Below are positions 2,767 through 38,965 of a stretch of DNA of 57,711 nt, piece after piece. Made by a program: the position numbers and the translations under genes. The stretch is from Bdellovibrionales bacterium (GTDB taxonomy: Bacteria > Bdellovibrionota > Bdellovibrionia > Bdellovibrionales > UBA1609): positions 1 to 57,711 of the forward strand of contig JALZUR010000025.1 of NCBI GenBank assembly GCA_023301025.1. The letters are read 5' to 3'. The notes under the pieces are model-generated. The model was given only the letters and a program-made list of their open reading frames with translations, was not told the DNA's origin and did not search any database. Each line of letters begins with the position of its first letter. Position 1 is the stretch's first letter.

Positions 2767-3390
2767 ATTTCTAAAACAAAAAAAGAGCTCCACCTTGCAA
2801 GAAAGATATGGCACATAAGTGGTGTTCTATCTATTTTATACTTTTACGAAAGCCTGCCCTACAAGCAAATGGTTTACTTTGGTGCCTTGATTGTTTTAAT
2901 TCTGGTGCTTATTGATTTTACAAGATTGCAAATACCAAGTCTTAATAGAACTGTTCAATTTTTTATGAAACCTTTCATTAGAGTTGAAGAAAAAACTCAA
3001 CTCTCAGGTTTAAGCTATATGGTTGTTGGTACGTATCTTACAGCTTTACTTTTTCCTAAAGAGGTTGTGTTTTTAAGTTTTATATTTTTAGCACTTGGTG
3101 ACCCAGTAGCTTCTTTTTTTGGAGTTCTCTATGGTCAAAACAAAATTGGTTCTAAGTCTATTGAAGGAACACTCTCTTGTTTTATCATTTGCACTGTTAT
3201 TTCAGCAGCGTACTTTGGCTTTAACAACTTTTTTGGTCATAGAATTTTTATTACCGTTCCACTTGCAGGCCTTATTGGATGCTTAGCTGAACTTATTCAA
3301 ATTAAAAATTTTGATGATAATATGACTCTTCCCCTATTTTCTGGTTTTGGTCTTTGGGTTTTATTTTATATATTCAGTTTCGCCCTCTAG
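2767..3390 (+). CDS. SEC59/DGK/VTE5-family CTP-dependent lipid kinase
   Basis: A polytopic membrane protein of the dolichol kinase, phytol kinase and diacylglycerol kinase family, which phosphorylates a lipid alcohol with CTP. The family signature is clear: ALGDPVASFFGVLYGQNKIG, then KSIEGTLSCF, AGLIGCLAELI, and DDNMTLPLFSGFG. The first in-frame ATG is at 2869, but the conserved N-terminal helix ELHLARKIWHISG lies upstream in the same frame, which is open back to a TAA at 2761. No ATG, GTG or TTG occurs in that part. I start it at ATT 2767, 9 bases after AAGG (2754-2757), giving 207 residues. The alternative is an indel joining it to a 23-codon ATG frame at 2703-2774. Neighbours pssA and asd follow; pssA supports a role in lipid metabolism. 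Confidence 0.75.
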   Translation: MSKTKKELHLARKIWHISGVLSILYFYESLPYKQMVYFGALIVLILVLIDFTRLQIPSLNRTVQFFMKPFIRVEEKTQLSGLSYMVVGTYLTALLFPKEVVFLSFIFLALGDPVASFFGVLYGQNKIGSKSIEGTLSCFIICTVISAAYFGFNNFFGHRIFITVPLAGLIGCLAELIQIKNFDDNMTLPLFSGFGLWVLFYIFSFAL

Positions 3391-27337: not shown

Positions 27338-29533
27338 TTAATCTACAGGGACAAAAACCTGACCAGATTTTAATGGGCGAGTAGATGTATTGGTTCTTTC
27401 AAGTGGTGTGTTACCCGAAAAAGAATCAGATTCTGTTATAAAAGAGTACTCAAAGTCTTCCTTTAAGTTAAAACCAGAGACTGAAGTTACTGCATCAGAA
27501 TGAACAATTAAAGTGTACTCCGTGTCAAAATCTAAGCCTAATGGATTTGTTGGATAAACTATTAAATCATCACCAGATGTAGAAACATCGATGTCTTCCC
27601 TACCGAAAAAACTCACAAGCTCAACTCTAAACTGATTAAAATCAGAAAGAGTGTCATTAAAATCAATTTCAATATCTGTTGTTATTAAAGCATCATCAAA
27701 AAAATCAGTCTCAATACTTACACTATCAACACTGAAGTCCGCAGTTCTAAAACTCCAAAGCGACTCACCTGTCTCAACATTGCTCTCATTAAGTCTATTC
27801 CCAGGAATAATTCTTACATTGTACCTACAATCTGGAATAAAGTTAAACCTTGGAATGAATTCAAACCTATTGTTGTCAGGTCCAAAAATTGAAAGATCTC
27901 CATCAACACTGTCTCCAAAACAGTTGTCTACAGAAATAAAGTTTTCATTAAAAACTTCAATAGAGTCCACTAAGTTTTCAGGAATAACTACATCTGCCAT
28001 TGTAAATGTGATGGTTTCATCAGCATCAACACGGTTTTCATTGTTGAAAGGACTTCTGTTGCTAGCAAAAAGTAAAGAAGGTGCCGATGAAATAGTAAAC
28101 CTCTCAGTTAGACTAGGCCCTTCATCTCCAAAAATACTATAGGAAACAAAAATAGATTGATTGAAACCAAACTGCTCTGTTTGAGAAGAGGCTATCTCAA
28201 ATCTCCTTGCACCAACCAGACTGGCAGTGGTTGAAACAGAAGGGTCATTTACTGAAGTGATATCTAAAAAACTATTAGATCCGTTTATATCAAAATTCGT
28301 TTCAAGAAAAATCTCAGTTCCTGGACTGAAATCAGACGTGTTTTCTGACAAACTAAATGAAGTCACTCTTCTTTCTCGAGTTGTAAACGTCCAACTAAAA
28401 TTTGAAGGTAAAGAAACGTCTGCGTTTAATGATGAACTGACTAAAGGTGTTACAGTTACTGTGTACTCTGTATCGTATCTTAAAGGACCACTAGTGATAA
28501 GCTTAATGGATCCTAGCGTTTCATCACCAACCTCAAAATTTAAAGGTTCGCTATTGCCTCCGTTTGTAGGACTCAAATTAATGCTGTTTTCATTAAGCGT
28601 TAATGGGTTTGGTATAAAGTTAAACTCTATATCAAGAACAACTTGTCTTGGTCTGTTGTTCTGAGAGTCTGAAAGAGGACTTGGATCAACATCTATACCT
28701 AGTGGTCCGTAAGTAAGAACCATTGGCCCAGGTGTAGAAAAAACTCTAACAGGACCTTCTTCAGGGTCTAGAACAACATCATCTTCATCACGTCCTTGAA
28801 CACCACTAAAGCCGTTTATAGGACTAATAAAAGATACCGTGTAACGTGAATTGTAATCCAGAGTCTCTCCGTTAGGTCTAAAAACAAGAGTTCTTCTGTT
28901 GTTTGTTAATCTCAATTGCCCTAAAACTCTTTGATTGCCCGTAGAGTTTAAGATTTGAACTGTGTTGTTCAAAACCTCTACACCATCAGTAAGTTCAAAG
29001 TTAAAATTCATCTCAATAGGTCTAATTGGATTTGCATTGTTTCCTGTATGACTGATACTTAAAAGTTCAGGATCTGGGCGAGCAGATGTAGAGAATGAAA
29101 CTGTAACATCATTATCAAGATTTCTACCAGAGGTGGATTCAATACTCTTTGACAGAACAAATGTGTACTCAGTCGACCATCTTAAAAGTGTCTCTGGCGT
29201 GTATGTTAAAACTCTACCATTCTCTGAGAGCTCTAGTTGTCCACCTAAGGCTTGATTGGTCTCGGTCTCTACTAAACTTAAAACACTAGCTTCAAAAGCA
29301 CTAGAGTCTATATCTAGAGGATCTTGATTTTCAATCACCTGCTGAGCACCTATTACACTTAAAGATTCTATTTTTAGAGCTTGTGTAAACTCAAACCTAA
29401 TAGGTGTGAAAATATTAACAACACTATCAGTATCAATAGAGACCGACTGCACTCTAAATGGATTTCGTTTAGAACTTGAGTTACAAGAAGCCGCTAAAAG
29501 AAGAGAAAGAACAACAATTGTTTTTTTAAACAT
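27338..29533 (-). CDS. lipoprotein with repeated Ig-like (Big_5) domains
   Basis: A 731-residue lipoprotein: signal KKTIVVLSLLLAASC, then tandem beta-sandwich domains of about 110-120 residues of the bacterial Ig-like Big_5 (SbsA) type. The repeated pattern is a start like PIRFEFTQALKIESLSV and an end like LRWSTEYTFVLSKSIESTSG or LRYDTEYTVTVTPLVSSSL, YNSRYTVSF and DFDTEYTLIVHSDAVTS. Five or six copies are visible. Such domains are elastic stalks or adhesion modules on the surface. The protein is acidic, consistent with a salt-tolerant surface protein. Whether it faces the periplasm or the outside cannot be read. Confidence 0.8.
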   Translation of the reverse strand: MFKKTIVVLSLLLAASCNSSSKRNPFRVQSVSIDTDSVVNIFTPIRFEFTQALKIESLSVIGAQQVIENQDPLDIDSSAFEASVLSLVETETNQALGGQLELSENGRVLTYTPETLLRWSTEYTFVLSKSIESTSGRNLDNDVTVSFSTSARPDPELLSISHTGNNANPIRPIEMNFNFELTDGVEVLNNTVQILNSTGNQRVLGQLRLTNNRRTLVFRPNGETLDYNSRYTVSFISPINGFSGVQGRDEDDVVLDPEEGPVRVFSTPGPMVLTYGPLGIDVDPSPLSDSQNNRPRQVVLDIEFNFIPNPLTLNENSINLSPTNGGNSEPLNFEVGDETLGSIKLITSGPLRYDTEYTVTVTPLVSSSLNADVSLPSNFSWTFTTRERRVTSFSLSENTSDFSPGTEIFLETNFDINGSNSFLDITSVNDPSVSTTASLVGARRFEIASSQTEQFGFNQSIFVSYSIFGDEGPSLTERFTISSAPSLLFASNRSPFNNENRVDADETITFTMADVVIPENLVDSIEVFNENFISVDNCFGDSVDGDLSIFGPDNNRFEFIPRFNFIPDCRYNVRIIPGNRLNESNVETGESLWSFRTADFSVDSVSIETDFFDDALITTDIEIDFNDTLSDFNQFRVELVSFFGREDIDVSTSGDDLIVYPTNPLGLDFDTEYTLIVHSDAVTSVSGFNLKEDFEYSFITESDSFSGNTPLERTNTSTRPLKSGQVFVPVD

Positions 29534-29721
29534 TAATACCCAACTTTATTTTTGTTTTATTAAAACCTTTAAACGTTAAAGCTTTGAAAAAAACAAATCC
29601 GAAGAGTTCTATCTCATTTAAATGTAATTATTATGCTATATATGCTTAAGTCCTTATCATTTATGGAATTGATTTTGCTACGTTAAAACCAATAATTTAA
29701 CCCGACAATTAAGGCAAACAA

Positions 29722-30150
29722 ATCAAATCTATCTTTTTAATTACACTTTTATCTTTATCGTTCACATACAACGCACACTCAGCATGTACAAATAAAACTC
29801 AAGGCTTTAGCGAAGGCAGTGTACATTCAGACTTTGTTTGCGCAAGTAACAAATTTAGGAGCGTAATAACAATTAAGGGCCATTCAGATGCAGTACTTAG
29901 CCTAGTCACAAATCTTTACCAAGATAGCAGTGAATGCACAAAAACTTTAAAGAATAATTTCTCATTAAGTGTTGAAACACTTAAAGGCGAAAATGGTGCA
30001 AGCTTTTCTGAAACAACACTTAATATTCCAGTATCAGTGCCAAGAGACGACAGATGCACCGCAGAGATTAAAAAACTTTCAGAATCTTTTGACGACAGTT
30101 TAAGCTTCAATCTTGATTACAGTCTTGTCTATAGATACACGTCTCTTTAA
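29722..30150 (+). CDS. secreted protein with ATC start, unknown function
   Basis: A 142-residue open frame running from just after a TAA at 29710 to TAA 30148-30150. It has a textbook signal peptide, (M)KSIFLITLLSLSFTYNAHSA, then CTNKTQGFSEG with four cysteines in the mature part. The signal peptide begins at ATC 29722, seven bases after AAGG (29711-29714). No ATG, GTG or TTG exists in this frame until GTG about 100 codons in, so either ATC is the start or the start codon has been lost by mutation. The reading frame has no internal stop. The function is unknown. It converges on the nuclease gene ending at 30162. Confidence 0.65.
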   Translation: MKSIFLITLLSLSFTYNAHSACTNKTQGFSEGSVHSDFVCASNKFRSVITIKGHSDAVLSLVTNLYQDSSECTKTLKNNFSLSVETLKGENGASFSETTLNIPVSVPRDDRCTAEIKKLSESFDDSLSFNLDYSLVYRYTSL

Positions 30151-30161
30151 TCAAAATTGTT

Positions 30162-31934
30162 TTATGGTAAAGTAAATTTTTTTGGGACCTTTGTTTTATA
30201 ACGAGGACTTGCCCAAACTTCTCTGCCCCAATATTCAAAACGTTCGGGATCTTTTAAATAGTAACTTTCCCAATCTACTTCAGGCCTTTTGCCTTCTCCA
30301 TTGTAAAAAACAGCAAGGCCTGACTCAAGCATTAAAGACCCAAAAGTTCTCACGCCCCAAGGACCTTCAAGAACAGCATCAAATAGATAGCGCCCTCTTC
30401 CTTCTTTTCCATCATTTACAAAATCCATGGACGAAACAGTTATCTTTGAAGCATTAGAAAAGAAATAGATAAGTGCCATTGTAGCAGCTCTTGACATAAA
30501 AGCTTCAACTTTTGTTTTGGCGAGAGAACTTTTTTCAGCCGTATCTAAATACAAAAACCTTACAGCTTGTGTGTCATAAACTCCATTCTTCTCTACAGAT
30601 AAATGTGCCGTATCACCGTCAGAAACTTTATCATAATTAAGATTCACAGCTTTTATTTTTGTGATTTGTGCAAAAAAATCAATTTTTGTAACTAAATATG
30701 TGGGTAACATCACAGGAATTGCAGATTGATAATCACCTAAAGATTTAGAAAAATTTAATTTTAAAACCACATTTTTAAGAACTGCTAACTCATCTTCATC
30801 AAAACTCTCAAATAACTTATTTAAAAATCTATCACTCCGGACTCGTTCAGAGCTAAGCTTAGAAACCAACTCAGGAAAGACTCTTTGATCCATGAACTTA
30901 GCAATAAGAGCAGCTCTAGGGTGTATTTGACTAAAAGACTCTGTATCTTCATCAAGCTGCCATTCAAAATTTGCAATTTTCCATCTTGTTTTAATAGTTT
31001 CAATTAAATTTTCAATCGAAAGATCTTCTAAATTATTAACCTTGTGAAGAAGATTTTTAAGCATCACATTAACATAAGTTTCTTTAAACTCACCATTAAC
31101 CGTCTCATCTGAAATGAGCTTAGCTGATACCTCTTCTGCCTTAATCCAAGACTGATCTAAAATATAATCTCGTTTGTATTCATCAAGTTCTGAGAAAACA
31201 ATTTCTTTTAGATCAAGATTTTTAAAAATTTCATAGATTTCATTAGTTTCAATTTCAACAAAGAAAGACAGATCTAAATTTATTAACGTTGGCATTGAAA
31301 CAAAGTCTTCAAGCCAAAAACCTTTATCTTTTTGAGAAGATACAACACTTTGAGTAAACGGAGGCTGAAACTCAGTTAGTCTAAAACCCCTATCAAAAAG
31401 TTTTTTTAGAACACCAGCTGAAACTTGTGTTCCACCTAAATCTATTCTTTTGATTTTTGAAACATCAAAACCTAAGTCTATCCCATAATCTATAATTTCT
31501 AAAAGCTGCTTTTGAGTAAGACTTGTGTTTGTAAACACCCACTCTGTGCCTGAAAAAAGAAAATGAATAATACTTTTAAAATCTTTTACTTTTAAAGTGT
31601 AGTAGCCCAAAAGATTTCTTCTTTTTGTAGAAAGCTGCTGCAAAAGAAAGGGACGTGTTCCCTTAAGTACTGTTTTTCCTGAATCAACAGATGCTACTTC
31701 ATCTAAAGCTTTTGGGAATATTTCATTTTTATACTCACCTTCATCATTTTTTAAAGCTTCAACTAAACTATCATATAAGTCTATTCTTACATTACGTATT
31801 TGTCTTAACGGTAGAACCTCACTTAAATTAAGAATGCCTGAGCACGAATCTGAAGATTTTTTTGTTTGAGCAAAACCTGAATTCAGCAAAAAAAACGTTA
31901 ATAAAAATACTGATATTTTAGTAAAATTTAACAC
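30162..31934 (-). CDS. secreted protein with C-terminal nuclease-like domain
   Basis: A 590-residue exported protein with a signal peptide ending about SGFA-Q. The last 160 residues resemble staphylococcal nuclease (SNase/thermonuclease fold): VSDGDTAHLSVE, then AVRFLYLDTAEK with the arginine and glutamate of the active site, GKEGRGRYLFDAVLEG with the second arginine, and FGSLMLESGLAVFYN. The first 420 residues are helical with leucine-repeat like stretches (DLGGTQVSAGVLKKLFDRGFRL) and no family I recognise. A prey- or nutrient-directed extracellular nuclease is possible, as these organisms secrete hydrolases, but activity and location are inferred. Confidence 0.7.
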   Translation of the reverse strand: MLNFTKISVFLLTFFLLNSGFAQTKKSSDSCSGILNLSEVLPLRQIRNVRIDLYDSLVEALKNDEGEYKNEIFPKALDEVASVDSGKTVLKGTRPFLLQQLSTKRRNLLGYYTLKVKDFKSIIHFLFSGTEWVFTNTSLTQKQLLEIIDYGIDLGFDVSKIKRIDLGGTQVSAGVLKKLFDRGFRLTEFQPPFTQSVVSSQKDKGFWLEDFVSMPTLINLDLSFFVEIETNEIYEIFKNLDLKEIVFSELDEYKRDYILDQSWIKAEEVSAKLISDETVNGEFKETYVNVMLKNLLHKVNNLEDLSIENLIETIKTRWKIANFEWQLDEDTESFSQIHPRAALIAKFMDQRVFPELVSKLSSERVRSDRFLNKLFESFDEDELAVLKNVVLKLNFSKSLGDYQSAIPVMLPTYLVTKIDFFAQITKIKAVNLNYDKVSDGDTAHLSVEKNGVYDTQAVRFLYLDTAEKSSLAKTKVEAFMSRAATMALIYFFSNASKITVSSMDFVNDGKEGRGRYLFDAVLEGPWGVRTFGSLMLESGLAVFYNGEGKRPEVDWESYYLKDPERFEYWGREVWASPRYKTKVPKKFTLP

Positions 31935-37483: not shown

Positions 37484-38965
37484 ATCTTAAACTTAAAAAA
37501 ATACGTTGATCCTCAAGTTTTTTGGGGCTCCGTGATCTCTTTACTGATTGTTATAATTCTTGCTATTTTTTTAGGCGATGGGGCACTTCTCGAACTCACA
37601 AACACATGGAAAGATAGTTTTTTAAAAAATCTTGGTTGGATTTATATTTTAACCTTTATTTGGATCATAGTTTTTACACTTCTAGTTGCTTTTAAATACA
37701 GTGACTATAAAATTGGCGGACCTGATGCTAAAAAAGAATTCTCAAATGTCTCTTGGATCAGCATGCTCTTTAGTGCAGGCCTTGGAACAGGTCTCTTGTA
37801 CGCTGGCCCTTTTGACCCTATGTCACATTTTTTTAAAAACGAAGAGCTATCAAACCTGAACATAACAGATAAGTTTATTAGATCTCTTGAAATCTGCTAT
37901 CTGCATTGGGGACTTCCAGCTTGGTTTGTATACAGCTCAGCAGGTTTAGTTTTTGCACTTATGAGTTTTAGCTTTAATGAAAAGTTTGAGTTCTCGGCCC
38001 TGATTCCTAAACGATTTAAAAAAATAAGAGTTTCAATAAATATTTTAGCTATTCTCTCAATTATTATTGGTGTGATAACAACATTTTCTCTTGCCGTAAC
38101 ACAGATCAATGCCGGTTTGAATAAAGTCTTTCCAATCATTAAAATAACAAAGGCAAACACAAGTTTAATTATTCTATTCATAACACTTCTAGCAACTTTT
38201 TCTGTTGTTTCAGGTTTAAAAAGAGGAATAAAGTTTTTAAGTCTTTTGAATATTGGTTTAGTTGCAGTACTTTTTATCTATGCCCTTTTACACACACCTA
38301 TAGGAGAAGTGATTGGCTTAACTTTAGAAGTTACAGGTCGACATTTAAGTAATTTTACCCAAGACCTATTCTACACAGCCTCTTTAAAAGACAAGTCTTG
38401 GCTTGGCGGGTGGACTATTTTGTATTGGTCTTGGTGGGGCGCTTGGGCCCCTTTTGTAGGTCTCTTTATTGCAAGAATTTCAAGAGGCCGTACCATAAAA
38501 GAGTTTTTTTTAGGAACTATACTTGCGCCTGCACTTATTGTTTGCATCTGGTTTACACTTTTTGGTTTTTTGTCTTTTCAAGGATACTTAGACGGGAGCA
38601 TTGATTTTGATCTCATATACAAAGTTGATGGTGCTCCTTATCTGGCTCTTTTTTCAGTTTTAGACACAACGCTTTTCCCAACCTTATCAACGTGTTTAGC
38701 TCTAGTGTGTGTCACTATTTTTTATGTCACTTCTTCAGACTCAGGCTCTTATGTTGTAGATATGATCGCCTCAGGTGGTAAAAAAAATCCGCACTCTTAT
38801 CTTAGAGTTTTTTGGTCTTTGGTTGAAGGTTTAATGGCTTTTATTTTGTTTTATTTTGGAGGGGTTAAGCTTATACAAAATCTTGTTATTCTTTTATCCC
38901 TACCTGTAGTTTTGTATTTGTCTTTTGGTATTTATAAGGTTCATGAAAAACTAAAAACAAATTAA
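37484..38965 (+). CDS. BCCT-family betaine/choline transporter
   Basis: A secondary transporter of the betaine-carnitine-choline family, 12 transmembrane helices, probably for uptake of compatible solutes. Family marks are LFSAGLGTGLLYAGPFDPM, then LHWGLPAWFVYSSAGLVFAL, WTILYWSWWGAWAPFVGLFI with the tryptophans of the binding site, and ISRGRTIKEFFLG. The first canonical start is GTG 37532, but the conserved element YVDPQVFWGS of the family lies just before it, in an open frame back to TAA 37436. I place the start at ATC 37484, seven bases after AAAAGG, giving 493 residues. The GTG is preceded by GGGG, so it stays an alternative. Confidence 0.85.
   Translation: MLNLKKYVDPQVFWGSVISLLIVIILAIFLGDGALLELTNTWKDSFLKNLGWIYILTFIWIIVFTLLVAFKYSDYKIGGPDAKKEFSNVSWISMLFSAGLGTGLLYAGPFDPMSHFFKNEELSNLNITDKFIRSLEICYLHWGLPAWFVYSSAGLVFALMSFSFNEKFEFSALIPKRFKKIRVSINILAILSIIIGVITTFSLAVTQINAGLNKVFPIIKITKANTSLIILFITLLATFSVVSGLKRGIKFLSLLNIGLVAVLFIYALLHTPIGEVIGLTLEVTGRHLSNFTQDLFYTASLKDKSWLGGWTILYWSWWGAWAPFVGLFIARISRGRTIKEFFLGTILAPALIVCIWFTLFGFLSFQGYLDGSIDFDLIYKVDGAPYLALFSVLDTTLFPTLSTCLALVCVTIFYVTSSDSGSYVVDMIASGGKKNPHSYLRVFWSLVEGLMAFILFYFGGVKLIQNLVILLSLPVVLYLSFGIYKVHEKLKTN

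Follow-up and report, generated by a model that had tools for sequence, protein, structure and literature searches.

We propose that the plus strand of the 57,711-nt stretch of DNA analyzed here (the window) carries, at 29722-30150, a small gene that is probably real and whose secreted product, periplasmic or on the cell surface, would be translated from an AUC codon. The window, with a G+C content of 34%, corresponds to contig 25 in a draft genome of 2.03 Mb and 55 contigs. The closest named matches of a same-order BCCT protein belong to Bacteriovorax and Halobacteriovoraceae, which suggests that the host order is the Bacteriovorax group and that the host is an uncultured bacterium related to the predatory genus Bacteriovorax.

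The open frame at 29713-30147 and its putative start

The plus-strand frame at 29713-30147 contains 145 codons without a stop. Minus-strand genes lie on either side (27338-29533 and 30162-31934), and the frame takes up much of the 628 bases that separate them. An in-frame TAA lies immediately 5' of the frame (29710-29712), four codons upstream of the putative ATC (AUC) start at 29722-29724, and the frame is closed by a TAA at 30148-30150, giving 142 codons counted from the ATC. Upstream of the ATC is a Shine-Dalgarno-like TAAGG (29710-29714) that can pair with the canonical 3' end of the host 16S rRNA. The original prediction had placed the ATC seven bases past the AAGG (29711-29714), with the TAA at 29710 upstream and about 100 codons free of ATG, GTG, and TTG; direct reading gave the same arrangement, with the first such codon, a GTG, 105 codons after the ATC, as the 108th codon counted from the beginning of the frame. 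The start region was predicted to be unstructured. A possible promoter-like sequence on the same strand (TTGATT-16-AATAAT, 29669-29696) was weak, and shuffled sequences yielded more such sites.

The coding score of the frame was positive (0.11 per codon), and G occupied 5% of its third positions. That score is weak beside the 0.07-0.34 of long genes, a 4-base Shine-Dalgarno match precedes approximately 6-7% of codons by chance, and we found no relatives of the protein, all of which would fit a chance or non-coding frame with a coincidental signal peptide and Shine-Dalgarno motif. We consider this explanation improbable, since only 19 of 20,000 runs of a first-order Markov model of the AT-rich 628-base gap produced an open frame of at least 145 codons and since a signal peptide and a Shine-Dalgarno motif in the same register are unlikely to coincide.

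The encoded protein

The candidate orphan protein has 142 residues and four cysteines. Translated from the ATC, it begins (I/M)KSIFLITLLSLSFTYNAHSACTNK..., and its signal-peptide-like N-terminus, (I/M)KSIFLITLLSLSFTYNAHSAC (29722-29790), has a lysine at position 2 and the hydrophobic core SIFLITLLSLSF, so that the n- and h-regions are clear. The cleavage site is uncertain; in place of an AXA motif it has AHS↓A or HSA↓C, which is plausible but short of ideal. The signal peptide, which had been described as perfect, was accepted by a crude rule-based test and has a good n-region and core, whereas its cleavage motif departs from AXA.

We found no match to Pfam or NCBIfam families and no homologue in 59 related genomes (family and order), genome_contigs, viral contigs, or plasmids; therefore, conservation of the start or of the protein was not seen. 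The single-sequence structure model was poor (pLDDT, 54).

The 145-codon open frame, the Shine-Dalgarno motif, and the signal-peptide-like N-terminus are combined in one register at 29722, and on this anatomy AUC is the likeliest start, with somewhat better than even confidence. Several observations count against it: neither the start nor the protein showed conservation, the structure model was poor, the Shine-Dalgarno motif (UAAGG) is of moderate strength at 5 bases, short of the extended motifs seen at verified non-AUG starts, and other host frames without canonical starts, such as a truncated GH10 frame, resemble frameshifts or pseudogenes. From the sequence, we infer that the gene may be expressed, with AUC as the codon used, that IF3 may control it, and that its product may be exported.

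Probable ATT and ATC starts of two other genes in the window

A scan of the window for frames whose coding part reaches 5' of the first canonical start yielded two that stood out. They are probably the two other genes to which the original prediction had referred. One has an ATT and the other an ATC, and in both the homologues or domains extend 5' of the first canonical start.

The plus-strand gene at 2767-3390 has a putative ATT start with AAGGA 8 bases upstream. It encodes a 207-residue membrane protein with an RKIWHISG motif, which we take to be dolichol-kinase/CTP-transferase-like. A TAA lies one codon 5' of the AAA that precedes the ATT, and the first ATG is found 34 codons past the ATT. 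Homologues were present in 53 of the 59 genomes, mostly aligned from residue 3, and nearly all of those read had canonical starts upstream of that residue. The protein thus appears to need an N-terminus upstream of its first canonical start.

The second gene, at 37484-38965 on the plus strand, encodes a BCCT transporter and has a putative ATC start with AAAAAAGG shortly upstream. The protein matched positions 1-483 of the 485-position PF02028 profile (2.3e-123), from frame residue 27 onward; the first canonical start, a GTG at 37532, corresponds to residue 32 and would cut the domain.

We examined how BCCT genes begin in related genomes and named records (sequences read: the window gene, L087, L088, L090, L093, L145-L149, and L212). 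In 11 of the order's BCCT genes, the corresponding position holds an ATC or ATT that follows a Shine-Dalgarno motif, namely in those of G000, G005, G016, G036, G044, Bacteriovorax UBA1852, Halobacteriovoraceae SAT180 and SAT2788, Bacteriovorax MedPE-SWde, the isolate Bacteriovorax sp. DB6_IX, and Bacteriovoracaceae L212. In five of these (G000, G016, MedPE-SWde, SAT2788, and L212), the interval from the upstream stop to the conserved region is free of canonical starts. The remainder have a canonical start nearby: SAT180, DB6_IX, and G005 have an upstream in-frame ATG or TTG that overlaps the Shine-Dalgarno motif, UBA1852 and G044 have a TTG two codons downstream of the ATC/ATT, and G036 has a TTG 13 codons 5' of the ATC. 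Other members of the order (G007, G001, G022, and L150) have an ATG or TTG start, and in Shewanella and other distant relatives the BCCT start is mostly ATG. By these comparisons, conservation of the AUC/AUU start in BCCT genes extends across the order, which is the best-supported part of the claim of wider AUC/AUU use; we found no description of it in the literature searched (open-licence papers).

The repetition of the ATC/ATT in independent assemblies, an isolate assembly among them, is a strong argument against a sequencing error in the BCCT gene. For 29722, an error at position 29724 that concealed a true ATG would be compatible with a single 55-contig draft that is probably a metagenome assembly. 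Given the BCCT result and the recurrence of the same codons with Shine-Dalgarno motifs in several genes, we regard such an error as very unlikely.

ATT and ATC candidates elsewhere in the genome

We surveyed stretches totaling 1.11 Mb (55% of the genome), which contained 972 genes with a defined upstream stop. The search for Shine-Dalgarno motifs ahead of ATC or ATT revealed five further candidates in addition to infC. A cystathionine/cysteine-synthase-like gene has an ATT after AAGGAG-N7, and in all 29 homologues read a canonical start coincides with the aligned N-terminus or lies close to it. A pcnB-like gene has an ATC after AAGGAG-N8; this start is less certain because the N-terminal extension is not covered by homologues. 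An AraC regulator has an ATC after GGAG-N6, and its Cupin_6 domain aligns from frame residue 3; both here and in the cystathionine/cysteine-synthase-like gene, the domain or homologues reach 5' of the first canonical start. A minus-strand lipoprotein gene (L136:12753-15638) has an ATC after AAGG-N7, and a 50%-identical large lipoprotein paralogue in the genome (L344) has a TTG in the same alignment column, both starts lying 25 residues from the lipobox cysteine. The fifth candidate, a methyltransferase frame (L304:11694-12773) that we take to be Rsm22-like from its motif, comprises 360 codons, the first 230 without ATG, GTG, or TTG, and has an ATC after AGGA-N11. Its start is tentative because the spacing is long, and it is possible either that this ATC is used or that the gene is damaged.

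The infC gene of the genome has an ATC after AAGGAGG. In most of the infC genes read from the order (L225-L254), as in other bacteria, AGGAGG-like motifs precede an ATT, ATC, or ATA, and no canonical start is present there.

Several other frames (L014:4381, L013:10907, and L011:17446, among others) lacked both a canonical start and a well-placed near-cognate codon, were judged to be fragments or frameshifts, and were not counted. The frame at L011:17446-18309 on the minus strand encodes a GH10 glycosyl hydrolase without the first third of the domain and is probably a frameshift or pseudogene.

These genes bear on the explanation that the ATC at 29722 is a former ATG altered by a recent G-to-C change, which would make the frame a recently formed pseudogene that is expressed barely or not at all. 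The orphan status of 29722, its lack of conservation, and the further broken-looking frames in the genome are in keeping with such a loss, and the canonical starts in homologues of two other ATT genes indicate that canonical-to-ATT changes do happen here. However, the 142 codons of 29722 are free of stops and frameshifts, the cystathionine-synthase-like and pcnB-like genes, which share this feature, are intact, and the start of the BCCT gene shows conservation. Moreover, start-codon loss would also yield ATA, ACG, AAG, AGG, and CTG, whereas every well-placed case other than infC has ATT or ATC (8/8), which has a probability of approximately 4e-5 if seven codons are equally likely, a rough figure given how the cases were chosen. 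Start-codon loss is thus an unlikely explanation, albeit the most serious of the alternatives, and we retain the reading of 29722 as a gene translated from AUC.

Enrichment of Shine-Dalgarno motifs and control genomes

For genes in which the first canonical start has no Shine-Dalgarno motif, we analyzed the codons lying 5' of that start. Such a motif preceded ATC more often than any other codon (7/19, versus 7.7% overall; p=3e-4), and the association persisted without 29722 (p=0.0012) and without all window genes (p=0.006). ATT alone showed no excess in this set (3/39). When all genes were included in a simpler enrichment test, the signal was weak (p=0.11 for 4-base motifs and 0.013 for 5-base motifs). 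Loose Shine-Dalgarno scoring was too noisy and gave no enrichment, and stricter filters were used instead.

Applied to control genomes, the same pipeline detected infC (ATT) alone in Escherichia coli K-12 (277 genes), one weak match in the complete same-order genome G042 (363 genes), no match in G015 (341 genes), and one ambiguous ATC in the near relative G009 (195 genes). The one-filter count was 9 of 972 host genes versus 3 of 1176 in the controls (p=0.037). One of the nine (L135:3518) passed the filter but is probably spurious, as its ATC sits within the coding stretch. When the window genes were removed, the difference between host and controls gave p=0.15. The genome-wide ATT/ATC excess over the controls is therefore modest and suggestive, and the firmer evidence lies in the individual homology-backed cases.

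The original prediction that AUU and AUC starts may be used more widely here than is known thus stood in part. Homology argues for it in the window genes and in several genes outside the window, as do the conserved BCCT start and the association of ATC with Shine-Dalgarno motifs. The extent of such use is small, with AUC/AUU starts in roughly 1% of the genes of the host genome and the modest excess described above.

Initiation machinery and a proposed mechanism

The 3' end of the 16S rRNA is canonical (GGATCACCTCCTT at G000:C21:86383). The initiator tRNA, from a tRNA scan covering about 1.1 of 2.0 Mb, has a CAU anticodon, a GGG/CCC anticodon stem, and an unpaired C1-A72, and the host IF3 retains the residues conserved among its relatives. 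An altered IF3, anti-Shine-Dalgarno sequence, or initiator tRNA was rejected as the cause, as all three looked conventional.

We propose that UAAGG-N7 on an unstructured leader would position the 30S subunit at the AUC of 29722 and that the ordinary CAU initiator tRNA would read this codon despite the third-position mismatch, such that the protein would begin with formyl-methionine. IF3 would hold initiation inefficient, resulting in a low and IF3-sensitive protein level. IF3 disfavours weak third-base pairs in vitro (PMC10158994), and low output is therefore expected from an AUC start; the strong exclusion by IF3 in vitro of mismatched AUC/anticodon pairs (UAU and AAU) counts against the AUC reading (PMC10158994). 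In Staphylococcus aureus, the AUU/AUA starts of cvfC1 and ccpN, which have extended Shine-Dalgarno motifs, give about 10% of AUG output (PMC13009471), and in Streptomyces the GTC start of sigR is repressed by IF3 (PMC5472188). The host's putative AUC starts are best read as weak, Shine-Dalgarno-driven initiation of a known kind, as in infC, pcnB, ccpN, and cvfC1.

Comparison with known non-AUG starts and implications

To our knowledge, proven bacterial AUU, AUC, and AUA starts are few, and most of them act as regulatory brakes. The comparison with infC and pcnB made in the original prediction is apt, as both are among the candidates in the host genome. Like 29722, infC (AUU/AUC/AUA) has a non-AUG start after a Shine-Dalgarno motif, which is strong in infC; however, infC is universal and autoregulated, whereas 29722 is an orphan with a weaker motif. 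The E. coli pcnB gene (AUU) is matched by the host pcnB-like gene, which appears to start at ATC, although its protein is unrelated to that of 29722. The staphylococcal cvfC1 (AUU) and ccpN (AUA) genes likewise combine a Shine-Dalgarno motif with a non-canonical start overlooked in annotation, and the BCCT start is similarly conserved; theirs, however, were verified by initiation profiling and reporters and have extended motifs (PMC13009471). The Borrelia burgdorferi pncA gene (AUU) was also truncated in annotation by callers that ignore AUU, but its start is experimentally proven and its product is an essential enzyme (PMC13398362). Streptomyces sigR shares IF3 as the proposed control but differs in that its start is GTC rather than AUC and was genetically tested (PMC5472188).

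Genes of this kind are truncated or lost by callers limited to ATG, GTG, and TTG, so that in the host genome the usual software gives AUC/AUU genes a wrong start or overlooks them. More tentatively, and with less than even confidence, AUC may be a regular minor start here (in approximately 1% of genes), preferred over the three-times commoner AUU, with the BCCT osmolyte transporter under conserved AUC/AUU translational control in the order and the whole set co-regulated by the level of IF3. If true, an order-wide conserved AUC start of a transporter, together with several AUC/AUU genes served by normal initiation parts, would provide a natural test system for the question of whether non-AUG starts form an IF3-controlled set or are isolated oddities.
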